64,000 bases of DNA. Origin: Rheinheimera sp. 4Y26. Its GTDB lineage: Bacteria > Pseudomonadota > Gammaproteobacteria > Enterobacterales > Alteromonadaceae. Location: assembly GCF_025245835.1 (NCBI RefSeq), contig NZ_JAOBWS010000001.1, positions 248,001 through 312,000 on the forward strand, given 5' to 3'. The position numbers were made by a program, and so were the translations under genes. Below the pieces are notes generated by a model, which was not told the origin of the DNA, ran no database searches, and saw nothing but the letters and a program-made list of their open reading frames with translations. Positions 7,857 through 15,973 of the stretch are shown here, piece after piece; positions within the stretch are counted from its first letter, which is position 1; each line of letters starts with the position of its first letter.

Positions 7857-9995
7857 TTATGGCTGCCAGTTGTAGCTGATTTGTAAGGTCAGGCTGCGAC
7901 CTTCCAGCAGGAAATCATTGCTGATGGCGGTACCGCTGGGTTCATAGGCTTTTTTATTCAGCAAGTTGCGAATGGCGGTTTTTACTTGCCACGGACTTTG
8001 ATCAGGCCGGTAATTCAGCGACAGATTCCACAGTTGATAATCGGGCAGCGGAGCGCGGTTGTCATTTGCCGCCCGCTGGCGGTCTGCTATCCAGTGGGCC
8101 CAACCCGACACTTGCCAGTTGCTGTTAATGTCGTAATACAACCGCAACGAAGCGGATTGTCCGGGCGCATTGGCCACCTGTAAATCAGTGGCTCTGTTGG
8201 TGGTGTCCTGATAAGCAAAATTAAAGTCGGCACGCCAGTGCGCGGCAGGGCGCCAGTTCCATTCAAACTCGGCACCCTGGCCATCCAGGTTGTACAGGTT
8301 GGCGGTTTGTAATGAAGATGTTCCTGGCACTGCTGTTTTGTCGATTAAATCCTTGGCTCTGTACTGATACAGGTTAAATACCAGATGATTGTCAAAGTTG
8401 ATCTGGTAGTCAAATACCAATTCAACGGTATCTATGGTTTCCGGATCCAGATTGGGGTTGCCAAGCGCTGACGGATTATTTTGTAAAAACAATTCGTTAA
8501 AAGAAGGTGCCCTAAAAGCGCTGCCATACAGCAGTTTAGTGGTCAGATTATGCGCCGTGTCCCACACCACAGCGAGGCGTGGGTTCACTGTGCTGCCAAA
8601 ATCGGAAAAGTGGTCGTAGCGCACACCATAAGTGAGGGCCCAGTCGGCGGCAATCTGCCAGATATCCTGCACACTCAGATGTACATTGGTGCGGCTGACC
8701 GGTTTGACATAGATATAGTCAGTGCCTGTCACATCCGTCAGTTGACCGTCGATTTGCGCCACAGTGCCATCAATAACACCAGGGCCAAAGTTTTTCAGTT
8801 CTCTGGGGCTGAGTTTTTGTTCAAAGGCACCAAACTCCAGGCGCAGTTCATGCTCGTTCACGCCCTGATAGTTCAGGATACTGTTAAAGCGGCTGTCCTG
8901 ATGGTTGCTGCGCGGACTGCCGATATAACCCTCAGTAAAGGTGACCCGTCCGACCGGTTTGGTAAAATTGGCATTGCCATCGGCACCGATGGGGAGGCGG
9001 GTTCCGGCCGGAAACAACACAAAATAAGTTTCGCTGCGGGCATCCAGATACGACAAATCATTGGTCCAGGACAAATTGTCATTGAGCTGATGCACATGGC
9101 TGAGTTTAGTGCGGTAATCACGGAATTTTTGGTAGCCAGCCGGATCCAGCGCCTGAGCGCCGCCAGGGCCTAGACCACCATCTCGTTGCTGCCACCACCA
9201 GTGCTCCCAGGTAAAACCCTGATATTGCACTGTGGCGTGTGCATTCAGAATATCGTAGCGGGTTGCCAGTGCGCCGGGGGCTCTTGATGCTTTGGTGCCA
9301 AAAATGCGGTCAAACACAGTTTGCTGGTCAGCGTTGACCACACGATCGGTATCTCCATCCGATTGCTGATGTTCCAGCGCAAAACCCAGCGCCAGCTCTT
9401 GCCAGTTTCCGCCTGTTTGCAGCCATAAATCGCGGCTGCCAAAACTGCCAATGCGCGCGCCCGCGCTATTGGCGCTGGAGCTCAGGTTTTTGGTGACGAT
9501 ATTAATCACACCGGAATAAGCGTCAGCACCATAGACTGCAGTGCCGGGGCCGCGGATCACTTCAATACGCTCAATAATATTGGCCGGAAAACGAAAGGTA
9601 TAAGGTAAGCCGCCGGAAAAACTGTTTTTAAATTCGGTGCCGTTGAGCAGCACCAGCACCTGAGGGTTAAATCCGGTCTGAAGGCCGCGGATGGAATACA
9701 CAGAGTCCAGCCGGCTGATGGTCGAAGGGGCAACATGTAAACCCGGTACCATTTCCAGCACTTCATCCAGATGGCTGGCTCCGCTGCGGGCAATGTCTTC
9801 GGCTGTGATTAAAGTGGTTACTGCAGGTGCTTTATCAATACGTTTGCTGGTGCCGGTGGCAATACTCACCATGTCCAGTTCACCATAAAAATCGGCAACT
9901 TCTTCTTCGATGGTGTTTTGCCGCGCAGCCCAGCTGGCCGCGCTATGCAATGATGCCAGCAGCAGGATAGCACGAACAAACGGATTAAATTTCAT
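7857..9995 (-). CDS. TonB-dependent outer-membrane receptor
   Basis: A 712-residue receptor with a signal peptide ending near residue 23 (AASWA). The plug domain runs from about 45 to 170 (PAVTTLITAEDIARSGASHLDEVL, IRGLQTGF, IERIEVIRGPGTAVYGADAYSGVINIVT) and a 22-strand-type barrel follows to the C-terminal LTLQISYNWQP. It resembles vitamin B12/siderophore-type plugs with a short N-terminus and no signalling extension. Downstream are the two citrate-synthase-like genes at 1-nt spacing; upstream, 97 nt away, is a histidine kinase and a periplasmic binding protein. The context suggests uptake of a specific compound sensed by that kinase; the ligand is unknown. Confidence 0.9.
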   Translation of the reverse strand: MKFNPFVRAILLLASLHSAASWAARQNTIEEEVADFYGELDMVSIATGTSKRIDKAPAVTTLITAEDIARSGASHLDEVLEMVPGLHVAPSTISRLDSVYSIRGLQTGFNPQVLVLLNGTEFKNSFSGGLPYTFRFPANIIERIEVIRGPGTAVYGADAYSGVINIVTKNLSSSANSAGARIGSFGSRDLWLQTGGNWQELALGFALEHQQSDGDTDRVVNADQQTVFDRIFGTKASRAPGALATRYDILNAHATVQYQGFTWEHWWWQQRDGGLGPGGAQALDPAGYQKFRDYRTKLSHVHQLNDNLSWTNDLSYLDARSETYFVLFPAGTRLPIGADGNANFTKPVGRVTFTEGYIGSPRSNHQDSRFNSILNYQGVNEHELRLEFGAFEQKLSPRELKNFGPGVIDGTVAQIDGQLTDVTGTDYIYVKPVSRTNVHLSVQDIWQIAADWALTYGVRYDHFSDFGSTVNPRLAVVWDTAHNLTTKLLYGSAFRAPSFNELFLQNNPSALGNPNLDPETIDTVELVFDYQINFDNHLVFNLYQYRAKDLIDKTAVPGTSSLQTANLYNLDGQGAEFEWNWRPAAHWRADFNFAYQDTTNRATDLQVANAPGQSASLRLYYDINSNWQVSGWAHWIADRQRAANDNRAPLPDYQLWNLSLNYRPDQSPWQVKTAIRNLLNKKAYEPSGTAISNDFLLEGRSLTLQISYNWQP

Positions 9996-10092
9996 ATGCA
10001 GTGATCTCCAAGGTGACTTTTGCGCAAATTACCTGCCCGGCGTTTCTACAACATAGCAGTATTTTGTATAGAAGCTATTGATTTTTATACAG

Positions 10093-11625
10093 TTAAGTTT
10101 TTAATATCGGAACGTATACCACAAATTCAGAGCCTGCGCCCGGTTTGCTTGAAACCTGAATTTTGCCATTCATCAGGCGGACAAATTGTTGGGTAATGGC
10201 CAGTCCGAGACCGGTGCCGCCGCTCTGTCTGCTCTGACTGCCATCAGCCTGATAAAAGGGAGTAAAAATTTTATTCAGTTCAGCCTCTGTCATGCCGATT
10301 CCGGTGTCGGCAATGCTGAATTCACAGCCTGTTTCCTGATAGCGCACTGTTAAGCTAATAATGCCACCCCGGGTAAATTTGCAGGCATTACTGAGTAAAT
10401 TCACCAGAATTTGCAGCAGTTTTTCACCGTCCAGATAAAGTTCAGGCGAGTGTTCCGGCAGCTGCAGTTGTAGCTGGTTTTGCTGTAATAAAGGACGGAT
10501 CAGTTCCACCGCCTGGGTCACTACCGAATTCAGCCGGACAAAACTACAATGCAGTTCCATTTTTCCCGCTTCTATTTTTGCTAAATCAAGCAGGCTGTTG
10601 ATCATCTTCAGCAGGTTCTCTGCATTCTGTTGCGCCCGGTTTAAGTCGGTGGTCAAGTCGGCATAGTCACTAAATTCCAGCTGCTCGTTCACCAAATCGA
10701 TATAACCAATCACCGACTGCAATGGGGTGCGTAGTTCGTGGCTGATATTGGCCAGAAATTCGGATTTGTGGCGACTGGCCGTTAGTGCCGCATCGCGGGC
10801 TGTGGTCAGTTCCCTGGTACGGATTTGCACCAGAGACTCTAATTTTTGCTGGTGTAATTTCAGTGCTTCGTCGCGTTCGGCAATGGCGGCAGCCATCTGC
10901 TGATAAGACTGGCTGATGTCCTGGATTTCAGAGCTGCCGGCCAAGACAGGTTCAGTGGCTTGCTGTAAAAAGTCTTCACTTTTCATCCGTTCAGACAATT
11001 GATGCAGTGGCTGGATGATTTTTTGCAGCCAGTTGCTGAGAAACAAAAAAATACTGACCACTGCCACAGAGAGCACCAGCAAACTTAACATCATCAGGTC
11101 TCGGTTTTGTTGTTGCAGCCGCTCTTTGCTAAAGACCAGCAGCGCATAACCCAGGTTTTGCATCTTGGCGGTGTCCAGCGACAATTCCGATTCGCTGTGC
11201 TCTGCCTGCGACTGCACCTGCACCGGTGCGGCCAGATAGATAAATTGATCGTTTTGCCAGATAAACATCTGGTCTGGATTATTGGCTAAGTTGTCGCGAA
11301 ACTGACGGGCATGGATGTCATCACCGCGCCAGACCAGCATGGTATTTTCGTTGCTCCACAGGCCGGCACCAATCAGATCCGGAAAAGCCTGCATCTGCTG
11401 CAATACGGCATCGGCATTTTCTGCACTGGCGGTTAACAGCGCTAAGACCGATTGTTGTGAAAAAGACAAAGCCAGTTGTTGTGCGTTAGACAACATTTGT
11501 TGATTACTGGAGCGGGAGGTCAGGGCAATCAGCAGTATGCCAAGGGTGGCGACCAGCACAAACAGGCTGGGAAGCAACAGATTAAGGAGTTGGCGCTTCA
11601 GTGTTGGAGTGTTTTTTATTGCCAT
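10093..11625 (-). CDS. Membrane sensor histidine kinase
   Basis: A 510-residue kinase with two membrane segments (about 13-35 and 178-198) flanking a periplasmic sensor of about 140 residues, then a HAMP-like linker, a coiled coil and a complete transmitter. The H-box is ISHELRTPLQ with H296; the N-box is NLLSNACKFT; the G-boxes are DTGIGM and GTGLGL. There is no receiver domain and no response-regulator gene beside it. It starts 12 nt after the periplasmic binding protein gene, which is likely its sensory partner. The next gene is the TonB-dependent receptor. Confidence 0.9.
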   Translation of the reverse strand: MAIKNTPTLKRQLLNLLLPSLFVLVATLGILLIALTSRSSNQQMLSNAQQLALSFSQQSVLALLTASAENADAVLQQMQAFPDLIGAGLWSNENTMLVWRGDDIHARQFRDNLANNPDQMFIWQNDQFIYLAAPVQVQSQAEHSESELSLDTAKMQNLGYALLVFSKERLQQQNRDLMMLSLLVLSVAVVSIFLFLSNWLQKIIQPLHQLSERMKSEDFLQQATEPVLAGSSEIQDISQSYQQMAAAIAERDEALKLHQQKLESLVQIRTRELTTARDAALTASRHKSEFLANISHELRTPLQSVIGYIDLVNEQLEFSDYADLTTDLNRAQQNAENLLKMINSLLDLAKIEAGKMELHCSFVRLNSVVTQAVELIRPLLQQNQLQLQLPEHSPELYLDGEKLLQILVNLLSNACKFTRGGIISLTVRYQETGCEFSIADTGIGMTEAELNKIFTPFYQADGSQSRQSGGTGLGLAITQQFVRLMNGKIQVSSKPGAGSEFVVYVPILKT

Positions 11626-11637
11626 CTGATTTTTTAA

Positions 11638-12555
11638 TTATTTGAATGTAATGGCAATTTGTCGTAATACTTCCGGTTTGTATTCCATGCCAAGGTGTGC
11701 GGCCGTGCGTAGATTGACTGCCAGCTGAACTTGTTGCAGTGGTATTACGGTAGCTGCGATTTTGGTCTGGTGCAACTGTTCAACCATCAACACCAACTCG
11801 CGACCCAGCTCAAAATGATCCGGAAAAGTGGAAAATAATACGCCTCTTTTGGCATGTTCGGGTTTACTGGAAAACAACACTATATTGCGCTCCCAGGCAA
11901 CTTCCAGAATTTTTGGCAGAATGACCTGTTCATTGACTGACACCGGGTCGAGCGGCAACCAGACGGCCGTGGTTTTGGCATCGATGTTTTGCCATAACTC
12001 CTGGTATTGTCTGATTGCATCTTTAAGATCAGTCACCTTTTGCGCAATAACTTCAATACCTTGCTGCTGGCCCTGTTCTATCGCGATTTGAATGAGCCAG
12101 CGGCTTGATTCGGAATACAACACATGGACTTTATCCACCGCAGGCGCCAGCATTTTTAATGAGCTGAATAACACTTTGGGATCGGTTAATAAACTGATGC
12201 CAGCCAGACCGGCCGGCTGAACAGGCAAGGCACCAACCACCACACTATTGCTGCTGTGGATTTGTTGTGCCACCTGATAACCACTTTTACCCAGTGCAAT
12301 CACCATGGTCGTGCTGTCGGCGCGCAGCTCTTTGGCAAGTTGTGGCAATGAAGTCGCAGCGTCTAATTGTTGCAGGCGCATCTCACCCTGATGCTGATGT
12401 TCAATGCCGCGGATGATTTGTTTAAAAATGTCGTCATAAGGTGCTTTGACCTGAGGGTACAACACTGTTAAAGGTGCAGCCGCCCATGCTTGCCATGCGG
12501 TCACTATCCACAGCAAAAAACAGCAGAAGATGACGGGGCTGGTGCGCATGGACAT
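11638..12555 (-). CDS. Periplasmic binding protein of the PF04392 ABC_sub_bind type
   Basis: A 305-residue protein with a signal peptide (hydrophobic 8-22, cleavage near AWA). The body has the alternating Rossmann-like pattern of ABC_sub_bind proteins: AAPLTVLYPQVKAPYDDIF at the start, VIALGKSGYQVAQ, VVGALPVQPAG, VHVLYSES and LFSSKPEHAKRGVLF. No ABC permease or ATPase is adjacent. Instead it sits 12 nt before a histidine kinase and upstream of a TonB-dependent receptor, an arrangement in which the protein presents a ligand to the kinase rather than to a transporter (inference). A second start at 12549 is possible. A hairpin and a promoter-like palindrome precede it. Confidence 0.8.
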   Translation of the reverse strand: MSMRTSPVIFCCFLLWIVTAWQAWAAAPLTVLYPQVKAPYDDIFKQIIRGIEHQHQGEMRLQQLDAATSLPQLAKELRADSTTMVIALGKSGYQVAQQIHSSNSVVVGALPVQPAGLAGISLLTDPKVLFSSLKMLAPAVDKVHVLYSESSRWLIQIAIEQGQQQGIEVIAQKVTDLKDAIRQYQELWQNIDAKTTAVWLPLDPVSVNEQVILPKILEVAWERNIVLFSSKPEHAKRGVLFSTFPDHFELGRELVLMVEQLHQTKIAATVIPLQQVQLAVNLRTAAHLGMEYKPEVLRQIAITFK

Positions 12556-12880: not shown

Positions 12881-13795
12881 TTAGGGGATCAGCCAGAACT
12901 GTAAGCCTTGTTGCTGTAAAAAGGCTTCAGCATCAGCACCTTGCAACAGCGCTGTGGTGGCTAATAAACCAGCCATCACGCAGCTTGGCGCCGACACTGT
13001 GACAGAGCGCGGCGCATTGGGCACTGGCCAGCCGGTTTTGGGGTTTAAGATATGGCTGTAGCGGATGCCGTCTTTTTGTAAAAAACGCCTGGCATCACCG
13101 CTGGTGGCCAAAGCGCCGGCTCTGAGTGCAACCAGCATGGCTGGCTCGTCCGGTTTGCCCGGATGTTCAATACCTATGCGCCAGGGCTGCTGGTCGGCTT
13201 TGCTTCGCACTGCCAGCATATCGCCGCCAAAGTTCACCACCATGGCCGTGTTTTGTGCTGTGGTTGCTGTTGTCAGCAACTGCGCCACTTTATCCACCGC
13301 ATATTCTTTGGCAATACCGCCTAAATCAAGCTCCATACCCTTTGGCAGCCAAAGTTTATCGCCGGTAAATTTCAGTTGGTTAAAACCAACCAGAGGTAAT
13401 AAAGCTCTGACTGCTGCTGCGTCCGGAATTTGGTCCGAACCATCAAAACGCCAGACTTTTCTCAGCACCCCAGAGGTGATATCAAATAAGCCGTCGGACA
13501 GCTGATAACAGGTTTTGGCAAATTGCATTAAAGCAGCGGTTTCATCGTCCAGCTGTTGCCAGCAATCAACTTGTTGATTGATTTGGCTTAACACTGAGTC
13601 GGGTTGATACCTGCTGTATTTTTGTTCAATACGCCAGGTTTCATTGGCTGCCAGCTGAGTAAGTTCAGTTGCTTTGGCTTCGGTGACACCCTCAAGCAGA
13701 ATTTCGCAGGGGCTTGCCATGGCACGAAACTGGCCGAGCCAGCCATAACTGGTGGCTTCCAGACTGATGTTGCTGGGGGCAGTATGTAAGGTCAT
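12881..13795 (-). CDS. apbE: ApbE-family FAD:protein FMN transferase
   Basis: A 304-residue flavin transferase that moves FMN from FAD to Ser/Thr of exported proteins. Family blocks: DLGGIAKEYAVDK (157-169), NFGGD (188-192), SGDARR (232-237) and HILNPKTG (248-255). The late magnesium-site block normally reads A-D-x-x-A-T; here it reads A275-G-L-L-A-T280, so the Asp is Gly while Thr is kept. No signal peptide or lipobox is obvious, which is unusual for a periplasmic ApbE. It is downstream of DUF3570, DUF4266 and TlpA genes on the same strand, separated by a terminator-like hairpin. The likely acceptor is the DUF3570 protein, which carries a flavinylation-like motif. Confidence 0.85.
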   Translation of the reverse strand: MTLHTAPSNISLEATSYGWLGQFRAMASPCEILLEGVTEAKATELTQLAANETWRIEQKYSRYQPDSVLSQINQQVDCWQQLDDETAALMQFAKTCYQLSDGLFDITSGVLRKVWRFDGSDQIPDAAAVRALLPLVGFNQLKFTGDKLWLPKGMELDLGGIAKEYAVDKVAQLLTTATTAQNTAMVVNFGGDMLAVRSKADQQPWRIGIEHPGKPDEPAMLVALRAGALATSGDARRFLQKDGIRYSHILNPKTGWPVPNAPRSVTVSAPSCVMAGLLATTALLQGADAEAFLQQQGLQFWLIP

Positions 13796-13867
13796 GGGTT
13801 TATCCGCGTAAAATCAGCTGTTTAGCAAAGCTTATTGCCATAATACCGCTATTGCAGCCTTAAGGCA

Positions 13868-13896
13868 GAAAAAAAGCGGGCTTTGCGGGCCCGCTT
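13868..13896 (-). terminator. Rho-independent terminator after the DUF3570 gene
   Basis: AAGCGGGC (13874-13881) pairs with GCCCGCTT (13889-13896). On the minus strand the hairpin is followed by a run of T (A-run at 13869-13875 on the plus strand). It ends the TlpA-DUF4266-DUF3570 transcript and may allow partial read-through into apbE. Confidence 0.8.
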
Positions 13897-13980
13897 GAGT
13901 GACTGTTAATAGCCAGGGATTTAGTGTTTAGCAAGCCACAGCTGCGGCCCGCTAGGCAGGTCACAGCTATGACCAAGCCT

Positions 13981-15297
13981 TTAAAACGAATAACTGACCT
14001 GCAGCATCACCGCTTTAACGTCGCCAAACAGTTCCAGATCTTGCAGCACGCCCGGCAGTTCAACGCCCGGGTTATTTGGATTTTGCTGATAATATTCCAG
14101 CCGCACGGCAAAATCATGGCCGCCTTCAAGCACAGTGCCCACTTTGGCGCCCACAGTGTAAGCATCCATCTGGCCAATGCGGTAGTCGGCGCTGGCAAAA
14201 GCCGGCAGCGGCATGCCTTCACTTAAAAACGGCTGGTAAAACTCTGCTTCATCCTGAGTGTAATAACGGGCATGAGGTTCGATATACCAGTTGCCAGCCA
14301 CCGGGAAACGCCAGCGTGCATCGGCGGTATGTGAATTCAGGCTCCAGTCGTCCCACATATAGCGGTAGGACAAATCCAGATAACTGCCGCTTAAGTGCCA
14401 TTTATTCTGCCAGTACAAACTTTGTTTGGTGCGCGAATCTGGCCTTTGTTCGTAAAGGTTCTGTTGGGTAATGCCATTGCTGTTCACCACACTCAGCACT
14501 TTAAAGGGATCAGATAAATAACCGTCGGCTTTGGCAATCGAATAATTCAGTTGCATCAGCCAGTCAGGATTGATCACCTGAGTGACGCCAAACAAAAGCT
14601 CAGCCGTGGTTTTGGTGTCGCTGTCGGTGCGGCGGCTGCCATCAAAAGCCTGCTGATAAGCCCCTTCACTGGCAAAATTGCTGCGAAACAGCATAGGGGT
14701 AAAAGCAGACGGAATGCCGCCTTCCGGGTTAATGCTGTCGTGGCTGAATGAAGTGCCCACAGATAAAGTGGTATTTTTATGGTTAAAGTCGCGGCTGATA
14801 TTGCCGTTGATACCCAAAGATAAATAATCATATTCTTTGGAGAAATGACCGCCCACAGTACCCCGGTAATTGGCGGTGAGCGGCTGCTCCCAGCTGGCAT
14901 CAAGCTGCACCCTGGTGTCGTGGAAAGTATCGTCAAGCGGTGTGGCACCTGCCGCTGTGGTATAGCTGCCGGCACCGGATGGCCGGGTAAAAGTCTGGGC
15001 GTCAGGCTGAGCAACTGCACCAGTGGCTGAGGCGCCGGTCAGGCTGTCGAGTACCAGATTTAAGTTCAGAAATTTATCGTCACCAAAGTCACCGCGTGCA
15101 CTTAAAATAGCTTCGGCTGCTTTGACTCGGTCGGTTTCGCCGTAATACAGCAAAGCTGAATTAAACTGCCAGCCTTCGATCAAGCTGTCGGTACTGTTAC
15201 CGGTATTGCTGTCGGCCGCTATCGCATTGGCAGACAATAAGGTGCAGGTGGCGGCCGCTAAAGCCGCGCTGATACTGCCGGTTTTAGTTAATTGCAT
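13981..15297 (-). CDS. DUF3570 outer-membrane-like protein with flavinylation-like motif
   Basis: A 438-residue exported protein, signal peptide cut near residue 28 (ANAIA). The rest alternates short aromatic-capped strands and ends in VMLQVSYSF, as expected of an outer-membrane beta-barrel; the overall pattern matches DUF3570. Residues 84-90 read D-S-L-T-G-A-S, the D-x-x-S/T-G-A-S/T pattern that ApbE modifies, and an ApbE gene lies downstream. I chose ATG 15297: GGAGGT (15303-15308), encoded within the end of the DUF4266 gene, stands 5 nt before it, whereas the longer TTG start at 15303 would destroy this site. It overlaps the DUF4266 gene by 10 nt. FMN attachment is inferred, not shown. Confidence 0.82.
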   Translation of the reverse strand: MQLTKTGSISAALAAATCTLLSANAIAADSNTGNSTDSLIEGWQFNSALLYYGETDRVKAAEAILSARGDFGDDKFLNLNLVLDSLTGASATGAVAQPDAQTFTRPSGAGSYTTAAGATPLDDTFHDTRVQLDASWEQPLTANYRGTVGGHFSKEYDYLSLGINGNISRDFNHKNTTLSVGTSFSHDSINPEGGIPSAFTPMLFRSNFASEGAYQQAFDGSRRTDSDTKTTAELLFGVTQVINPDWLMQLNYSIAKADGYLSDPFKVLSVVNSNGITQQNLYEQRPDSRTKQSLYWQNKWHLSGSYLDLSYRYMWDDWSLNSHTADARWRFPVAGNWYIEPHARYYTQDEAEFYQPFLSEGMPLPAFASADYRIGQMDAYTVGAKVGTVLEGGHDFAVRLEYYQQNPNNPGVELPGVLQDLELFGDVKAVMLQVSYSF

Positions 15298-15515
15298 CCA
15301 CAACCTCCGCCTGCAAAACTACGGCCGCCGCTGGAGCCTTCTTTACTGAAATAAATGTGATCATCTAACGCATTGTCGAGACCGGCAGAATTAAGCTGCA
15401 TCTCTTTTTTGGCTAAAGTGCCGCGTTGCCAGGGTTTGACCGTATCAAGGCTGGCGCAGGCGGCCAGTTGTGACAACGCCAAAGCGGTGATTAATATCCT
15501 GATTTTGTTATTCAT
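15288..15515 (-). CDS. DUF4266 small lipoprotein with C-terminal Gly/Cys motif
   Basis: A 75-residue predicted lipoprotein: basic start, hydrophobic stretch and lipobox L-A-A-C with acylated C20. The mature part is only about 55 residues and ends in G-G-G-C72-G-C74-N, preceded by a Ser/Gly-rich segment. This short lipoprotein with the Gly-Cys tail matches DUF4266. The tail suggests a metal, thiol or modification site; a thioredoxin-like TlpA is encoded immediately upstream (4-nt ATGA overlap) and could keep the cysteines reduced. It overlaps the DUF3570 gene downstream. Function unknown; family assignment is by pattern and neighbourhood. Confidence 0.8.
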   Translation of the reverse strand: MNNKIRILITALALSQLAACASLDTVKPWQRGTLAKKEMQLNSAGLDNALDDHIYFSKEGSSGGRSFAGGGCGCN

Positions 15516-15973
15516 TTTGTGTCCTCTTGCAGCAGCTGCTGAATTTCGTGTTCGTAATCCTGGGTTTTTGCAGTAAAAAAGCCGGCGTGGCTAAAGCGGA
15601 TCTGGCCTGTTCTGTCGAGAAAAATGCTGGTTGGCATGCCCTGCAACTGATAATGCGAGGCCAGCTCGCCTTGTGGGTCAAATACCAGCGAAAATTGCGC
15701 AGGGTACTTTTGCAAAAACTGCATTGCGTCCGCGCGTTCTTCGTCTTCATTAATGGCAATAATGACTAAACCCTGCTCGCGGTATTTTTGCTGCATCTGA
15801 TTCAGCCAGGGAAAAGACTGTCGGCAAGGGCCACACCAGGACGCCCAAAAGTCCAGTAGCACCACTTTGCCCTGATATTGCGCCAGGTTCAGCGCCTGGG
15901 CTGGGGTTGGGGCTGTTTCGCTGGCAAAGGTTGAAAAAGTGAATAAAAACAGAAAGCTGTACAGCAGTTTCAT
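15512..15973 (-). CDS. TlpA-like periplasmic thiol-disulfide oxidoreductase
   Basis: A 153-residue thioredoxin-fold protein with a signal peptide (1-17). The active site is W-C47-G-P-C50 in the usual LLDFWASWCGPC setting, followed by the AINEDEE strand, a TlpA-type insert and the cis-proline block GMPTSIFLD. It is expected to be a periplasmic reductase for cysteine partners. It is first of the TlpA-DUF4266-DUF3570 operon, with a 4-nt overlap to DUF4266, whose paired C-terminal cysteines are the obvious substrate. AAGGAG precedes the ATG. Confidence 0.9.
   Translation of the reverse strand: MKLLYSFLFLFTFSTFASETAPTPAQALNLAQYQGKVVLLDFWASWCGPCRQSFPWLNQMQQKYREQGLVIIAINEDEERADAMQFLQKYPAQFSLVFDPQGELASHYQLQGMPTSIFLDRTGQIRFSHAGFFTAKTQDYEHEIQQLLQEDTK

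Follow-up and report, generated by a model that had tools for sequence, protein, structure and literature searches.

Clusters that pair DUF3570 proteins with ApbE, a transferase which moves flavin mononucleotide (FMN) from flavin adenine dinucleotide (FAD) onto proteins, have been described by Meheust et al. 2021 (PMC8238504), the one paper in the literature searched that names DUF3570 or DUF4266. The DUF3570 protein of Chlorobium luteolum (C. luteolum) was flavinylated there on coexpression with its ApbE, and mutating both of its motifs abolished the flavinylation. DsbD was present in 285 clusters, 227 of them with DUF3570, and a further arrangement of ApbE, DUF3570, a thioredoxin-like protein and DUF4266 without DsbD was counted in 316; the function of the clusters was called uncertain, with iron assimilation suggested in connection with 25 clusters that hold a VIT1 iron transporter.

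The locus considered here is a TlpA-DUF4266-DUF3570-ApbE cluster of Rheinheimera sp. 4Y26, which lies in a stretch of 64,000 nucleotides (the window; C11:248001-312000 within the 4.08 Mb genome). A first-pass annotation of this stretch had stated that genome surveys link these families to ApbE with no established function, in agreement with the published account, and had proposed that ApbE flavinylates DUF3570; this is published for the C. luteolum relative with its two motifs and extends by analogy to the window protein, which has one. The core of the finding, DUF3570 flavinylation clusters, is already in print, and the new point is the compartment of ApbE. The reading favoured here, at a rough probability of 0.6, takes the locus for a DUF3570 flavinylation cluster whose flavin would be loaded before export and would then exchange electrons with TlpA and DUF4266.

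The DUF3570 protein and its motif

The window DUF3570, whose best named relative is a Rheinheimera record at 94% identity, matches PF12094 over its full length (profile positions 2-427 of 427). Its residues are numbered from the ATG at 15297, the open reading frame listing beginning two codons earlier at a TTG. On recomputation, the motif D84-S-L-T-G-A-S90 falls exactly where the first-pass annotation had put it. The pattern D..[ST]GA[ST] appears in 160 of 20000 shuffles of the protein and in one of the 85 window reading frames of at least 100 residues, namely DUF3570 itself, a frequency that taken alone is mildly unusual; the motif is judged real because it is conserved among relatives, and a chance occurrence was rejected on that ground. 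In an alignment of 64 rows (63 of 80 named loci plus the window protein), D84, L86 and G88 are identical throughout, positions 87, 89 and 90 are T/S, A/S and S/T in all rows, and the adjoining G93-A94 is likewise identical in all 64. The slightly wider pattern D..[ST]G[AS][ST] is found in 79 of the 80 named loci, from which the aligned rows were mostly drawn. The suggestion that the motif is conserved in homologues and travels with apbE is thereby borne out, the gene order TlpA > DUF4266 > DUF3570 > ApbE being present in 88 of 139 loci, and flavinylation of the window DUF3570 is considered likely.

Chlorobium-like DUF3570 proteins (e.g. L069, L070, L072 and L074) carry two motifs and the window protein one; its second copy reads TGAV, and position 95 is S in none of the 64 rows and T in five. 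Among 61 DUF3570 proteins from a class sample of 274 genomes, 47 are of a G type ([DE]..[ST]G[AS][ST]), another 13 fall into an S type (mostly D..[ST]SAS), and L056 alone belongs to neither, having I where S/T is usual. A second branch with D..[ST]SAS replacing SGAS is seen in L073, L077, L078, L080, L082, L084, L087 and L089-L092, and where an apbE adjoins it (L077, L082 and L084) the enzyme bears a signal peptide. In L033, L041 and L242 the DUF3570 reading frames reach about 900 residues, double the usual length, with DTWSGAT.

Both a signal peptide (judged by eye) and a C-terminal aromatic residue, two features expected of an outer-membrane barrel, are present in the window protein, and the last residue is F/Y/W in 111 of 139 DUF3570 proteins. 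The only cysteine, C18, lies within the signal peptide, so that the mature protein has none, and in 127 of 139 DUF3570 proteins no Cys follows the signal. By a hand count, the strand-like alternation in the alignment and the lengths of the loops would fit 16 strands, the third predicted strand being followed by a long second loop that opens with the motif. A search for solved relatives of DUF3570 returned 0 at E up to 10.

A clade of ApbE enzymes with no signal peptide

Neither a signal peptide nor a lipobox is present on the window ApbE: its open frame extends only 6 codons before the ATG, and the 24 residues ahead of the AMASPCE block are polar. The enzyme carries the sequence KEYAVD, the counterpart of which in other ApbE clades with a recognised motif is KG[YW]. 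Among solved structures, a profile of the KEYAVD type hits 13 distinct ApbE sequences, with 1vrm as the best (E 1.1e-60), and the conserved core residues are present.

Signals were called by a home-made rule, namely a charge-free 10-residue stretch of mean hydropathy at least 2.0 near any possible start; for ApbE the rule was applied to every start available in the stop-to-stop frame, and a misplaced start codon hiding a signal was rejected on that basis. Under this rule, 6 of 106 ApbEs lying no more than 4 kb from a same-strand DUF3570 have a signal-like N-terminus, versus 29 of 35 other ApbEs in the same genomes. Four of the six (L077, L082, L084 and L085) belong to other DUF3570 branches. 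Counted by type, the figures are 2 of 101 for KEYAVD-type ApbEs versus 33 of 40 for the others. The two KEYAVD calls are probably false, as L119 scores where its frame overlaps the end of its DUF3570 gene and L145 scores on the conserved core. Of the seven signal-negative enzymes outside the type, five (L058, L074, L075, L114 and L149) lie at DUF3570 loci; the N-termini of the other two (L185 and L186) look exported but were missed by the rule. In 46 of the 101 KEYAVD-type frames, no more than 30 residues lie ahead of the domain core. The first-pass annotation had placed the whole system outside the cytosol; this part is not supported, since the window ApbE has no signal peptide and belongs to a type that so rarely shows one.

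In a tree of 97 ApbE rows made by a quick method (the class sample, nine named loci and extra copies), all KEYAVD or KEYAAD rows, plus a few lacking the exact string, form one group of 48 with an SH-aLRT (Shimodaira-Hasegawa-like approximate likelihood ratio test) value of 100. A different group takes in the signal-bearing ApbEs of L077, L082, L084 and L085, whose DUF3570 neighbours are S-type or odd.

Co-occurrence of the two proteins

In the class sample, DUF3570 is matched in 71 of 274 genomes and at 165 bits or more in 40, which span 33 family codes. With a profile built from 20 signal-less ApbEs and a cut of at least 217 bits, the KEYAVD type is found in 42 genomes: 39 of the 40 with full-length DUF3570 versus 3 of the 234 others. 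The exception among the 40 is G052; outside them stand G034, G056 and G193, the latter two with weak DUF3570 matches. In a draw of 398 genomes from the phylum, partly overlapping the class draw, 14 of the 16 with DUF3570 at 265 bits or more have the ApbE type, and the remaining two, G512 and G360, each hold a local ApbE that is divergent and, as judged by eye, signal-less; both co-occurrence counts were taken with no correction for kinship. By motif, 43 of the 47 G-type DUF3570 proteins are in genomes with a KEYAVD-type ApbE, as are 4 of the 13 S-type proteins, two of these four alongside a G-type copy. Where DUF3570 has no adjoining apbE (G003, G006 and G137), the signal-less type is located elsewhere in the genome.

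Most of the 39 genomes also keep signal-bearing ApbEs. G091 (100% complete) and G006 (96%) each have a single ApbE, which is signal-less, with DUF3570 motifs that read DSISGAT and DILTGAS. No FMN_bind, NqrB/RnfD or DUF2271 matches were found in these two genomes, the flavinylated flavodoxin-like and FMN-reductase-like classes not having been searched. If DUF3570 is flavinylated in G091 and G006, it is a cytosolic enzyme that does so.

Proposed mechanism and electron path

ApbE requires a short motif with an essential Asp, and folding is suggested to have put the motif of one engineered protein beyond its reach (PMC10722498). In the proposed mechanism, the cytosolic ApbE of this dedicated clade would take FMN from cytosolic FAD and attach it to Ser90 of the DUF3570 precursor, which as an outer-membrane precursor would be unfolded while in the cytosol; the FMN-tagged chain would then pass through Sec and form the barrel in the outer membrane. 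The FMN would then be carried where the long second loop begins, which by strand parity from both ends would be on the outer face if the strand count is right. Cytosolic loading of DUF3570 is regarded as probable from the comparisons above. That the clade as a whole is cytosolic and attaches FMN covalently to the precursors of outer-membrane barrels ahead of Sec, with a redox cofactor carried across the inner membrane on an unfolded chain to a place on or near the cell surface, is given slightly better than even odds.

The remaining two proteins look exported: signal-like N-termini are present in 107 of 115 TlpA and 128 of 137 DUF4266 proteins at the 2.0 cut, and a C-terminal C-x-C is present in all 137 DUF4266 proteins. 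An Asp next to the lipobox Cys serves as a sorting rule for outer versus inner membrane. A lipobox-like stretch is present in 117 DUF4266 proteins and Asp follows it in none, which fits sorting to the outer membrane. Given the absence of cysteine from DUF3570 and the C-x-C and predicted sorting of DUF4266, a thiol carrier may lie under the barrel with the flavin in the barrel. Periplasmic TlpA, which may be fed by DsbD, would exchange electrons with the flavin through the C-terminal Cys-Gly-Cys of DUF4266, a redox chain TlpA - DUF4266 - FMN that is an inference from sequence, from which the direction of electrons is not readable.

In the alternative polarity, the flavin takes electrons from the DUF4266/TlpA thiols and passes them outward, in a disulfide-forming or metal-reducing role, instead of feeding reduction in the periplasm. 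The 25 VIT1 clusters with their suggested iron assimilation (PMC8238504) and the predicted outward position of the motif speak for this route, but no neighbour in the window indicates a substrate and the direction is not settled by the genes, leaving it a tentative option well short of even odds. Extracellular disulfide reduction in Shewanella oneidensis (PMC10986466) is attributed there to cytochromes and was not used here.

Loading before export weighed against its alternatives

Several observations weigh against loading before export. The signal calls rest on a home-made hydrophobicity rule which DUF3570 itself passes in only 80 of 139 cases at the cut of 2.0 (120 of 139 at a lax 1.8), the rule being strict for DUF3570 because its signals are weakly hydrophobic, and Fisher p-values on the signal counts ignore shared ancestry. 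The cut-offs of 165 and 217 bits were chosen after the scores were known, the next lower ApbE scores being 203 and 197 bits. In 5 of the 398 phylum genomes (L231, L234, L235, L249 and L254) the signal-less ApbE type is present with no DUF3570 match, which implies that it has other substrates too. Four of the 47 motif-bearing DUF3570 proteins (L076, L079, L083 and L085) are in genomes that have no KEYAVD-type ApbE, and the ApbE adjoining the L085 protein has a signal. From the literature, the C. luteolum test followed a "similar cloning strategy" to that for a pair in which both proteins were truncated of their signal peptides (PMC8238504), wording from which the C. luteolum ApbE may have a signal; further, folded apo-NqrC was flavinylated in vitro (PMC12052999), so that an unfolded substrate is no general need. 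Finally, the genome of the window carries a second ApbE, which is signal-bearing.

That second enzyme bears on the possibility that flavinylation of DUF3570 takes place in the periplasm once the protein has been exported, the work of a signal-bearing ApbE or of the linked one if it can itself get out of the cytosol. In the literature consulted, ApbE substrates with a known site are extracytosolic except for a Klebsiella fumarate reductase (PMC12052999), and the S-type proteins (SSAS) of L077, L082 and L084 do stand beside signal-bearing enzymes. Periplasmic loading is nevertheless unlikely, since G091 and G006 possess the signal-less enzyme only, and 39 of 40 genomes keep this type with DUF3570 even though most of them also have signal-bearing ApbEs.

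A cytosolic protein as the actual target of the linked ApbE, with DUF3570 not a substrate in the cell, is improbable. In Klebsiella a cytosolic ApbE does have a cytosolic enzyme as its target (PMC12052999), and the five genomes with the type and no DUF3570 point the same way; against this stand the conservation of the motif, the gene order and co-occurrence, the published result that a cognate ApbE flavinylates its DUF3570 (PMC8238504), and the lack of the three searched substrate families in G091 and G006, the flavinylated flavodoxin-like and FMN-reductase-like classes lying outside that search. Least credible is a motif kept purely for structure in a barrel never flavinylated in the branch of the window. 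The invariance of G93-A94 despite loss of the second motif speaks for it; against it, D and S/T are retained while neighbouring residues change, and ApbE is retained alongside.

Gene cluster in the window

All four genes have strong Pfam matches and are on the minus strand (Table 1), and the arrangement given in the first-pass annotation, with apbE downstream and the thioredoxin and Cys-tailed lipoprotein upstream, agrees with these positions and matches. The tlpA, DUF4266 and DUF3570 genes overlap one another by a few bases, the DUF4266 start with the tlpA stop and the DUF4266 stop with the DUF3570 start. A gap of 185 bases separates DUF3570 from apbE and contains a terminator-like hairpin; eight such hits were found versus a shuffle mean of 5.9, about as frequent as in shuffles. 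ApbE, DUF3570, a thioredoxin-like protein and DUF4266 are present together, as in DsbD-type flavinylation systems. No DsbD gene is present in the cluster, the sole DsbD_TM match of the genome being at C11:914311, about 650 kb away on the same contig.

Table 1. Features of the flavinylation cluster, in window coordinates.
Feature	Position	Strand	Basis
tlpA-like exported thioredoxin, 153 residues, SWCGPCRQ active site (CxxC)	15512..15973	-	Redoxin E 2.7e-23, AhpC-TSA E 7.5e-21
DUF4266 lipoprotein, 75 residues, lipobox LAAC, C-terminal GGGCGCN	15288..15515	-	PF14086 E 3.2e-23
DUF3570, exported protein, probably outer-membrane beta-barrel, 438 residues, C-terminal Phe	13981..15297	-	PF12094 E 3.4e-164
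DUF3570 signal peptide, about residues 1-28	15214..15297	-	sequence MQLTKTGSISAALAAATCTLLSANAIAA; cleavage site judged by eye
Flavinylation motif D84-S-L-T-G-A-S90, predicted FMN site Ser90 (D84 codon 15046-15048, S90 codon 15028-15030)	15028..15048	-	conservation in 64 of 64
Terminator-like hairpin with T run, between DUF3570 and apbE	13874..13896	-	consensus match only
apbE, KEYAVD type, 304 residues, predicted cytosolic FAD:protein FMN transferase	12881..13795	-	PF02424 E 1.8e-70
AMASPCE block, start of ApbE domain, residues 25-31	13703..13723	-	alignment
KEYAVD, residues 163-168	13292..13309	-	alignment and tree labels

Among 716 reading frames neighbouring 70 loci, the commonest extra families are a histidine kinase (17 loci) and a response regulator (14), followed by a DUF1501 protein (8) and an unassigned lipoprotein-like protein (8), and DsbD is present at 4; a common metabolic neighbourhood was rejected, with no clear substrate among them. 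In the window, genes for a TonB receptor, a histidine kinase and an ABC-type (ATP-binding cassette) substrate-binding protein lie 3' of apbE on the same strand (7857-12555, -) and may form a separate unit.

Other loci with signal-less ApbE

In the three of the five phylum genomes without DUF3570 that have enough flanking DNA, the signal-less ApbE adjoins a small EF-hand protein with the sequence PQ[AV][MW][ST]GAS.[KR]MPP (coordinates L234:4140-4538, L235:5688-6020 (+)). A search profile built from two of these same proteins gave strong matches (E 1e-35 or better) in 4 of the 398 genomes, each of them one of the five. It is a candidate for a new ApbE substrate in which Gln would replace the usual Asp; no literature linking it with ApbE was found in the searches. 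L253 (G352, contig C255) contains an open frame of 718 residues that matches the same profile at least five times.

In two related genomes, G056 and G193, the signal-less ApbE lies directly 3' of a general porin (L223:6064-8070 and L224:4154-6159), and their DUF3570 is located elsewhere and reads DLLA[ST]AS. A flavinylated porin was rejected, as the porin has no D..[ST]GA[ST]. An ApbE of the signal-less type is also present in G034 (L222:6473-7561), a complete genome with no DUF3570 match.

Implications

When a protein exported by Sec carries a covalent cofactor, the general view is that attachment follows export, with haem c as the usual example; attachment of FMN to an exported protein before export would, if true, be unusual. 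A study of bulky adducts in relation to the pore size of SecYEG is cited in PMC8082313. If FMN is attached ahead of export, flavinylation would have no need of periplasmic FAD, the KEYAVD sequence would mark an ApbE clade as cytosolic, and outer-membrane flavoproteins could be built by the same logic as glycosylated autotransporters. As the same cluster is found in Shewanella sp. ANA-3 (L111), cytosolic loading could be tested in easily handled bacteria.

Comparison with known systems

In the literature searched, including the available text of PMC8238504, no discussion was found of an ApbE without a signal or of its compartment in DUF3570 clusters, nor was a relevant paper on flavinylation before export, subscription journals being thinly covered. 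The closest system is that of the DUF3570 clusters of Meheust et al. (PMC8238504), which have the same four families, a retained motif and, in the DsbD-less form, the arrangement of the window; the C. luteolum protein differs in having two motifs where the window protein has one. Flavinylation of the NQR/RNF type by a periplasmic lipoprotein ApbE uses the same enzyme family and the same D-x-x-[ST]-G-A-[ST] motif type (PMC10722498), but that ApbE is exported (signal or lipobox) and has KGYAVD, in contrast to the window ApbE with KEYAVD and no signal. The ApbE of the Klebsiella fumarate reductase likewise has no signal peptide (PMC12052999); its target stays in the cytosol, whereas the target in the window, DUF3570, is exported. 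Finally, autotransporters offer a precedent for modification ahead of Sec export, as these proteins of the outer membrane or cell surface are glycosylated by a cytosolic enzyme while still inside the cell (PMC8151025), in the order proposed here; the autotransporter system adds sugar by means of unrelated enzymes, whereas the DUF3570 system would add a redox cofactor.

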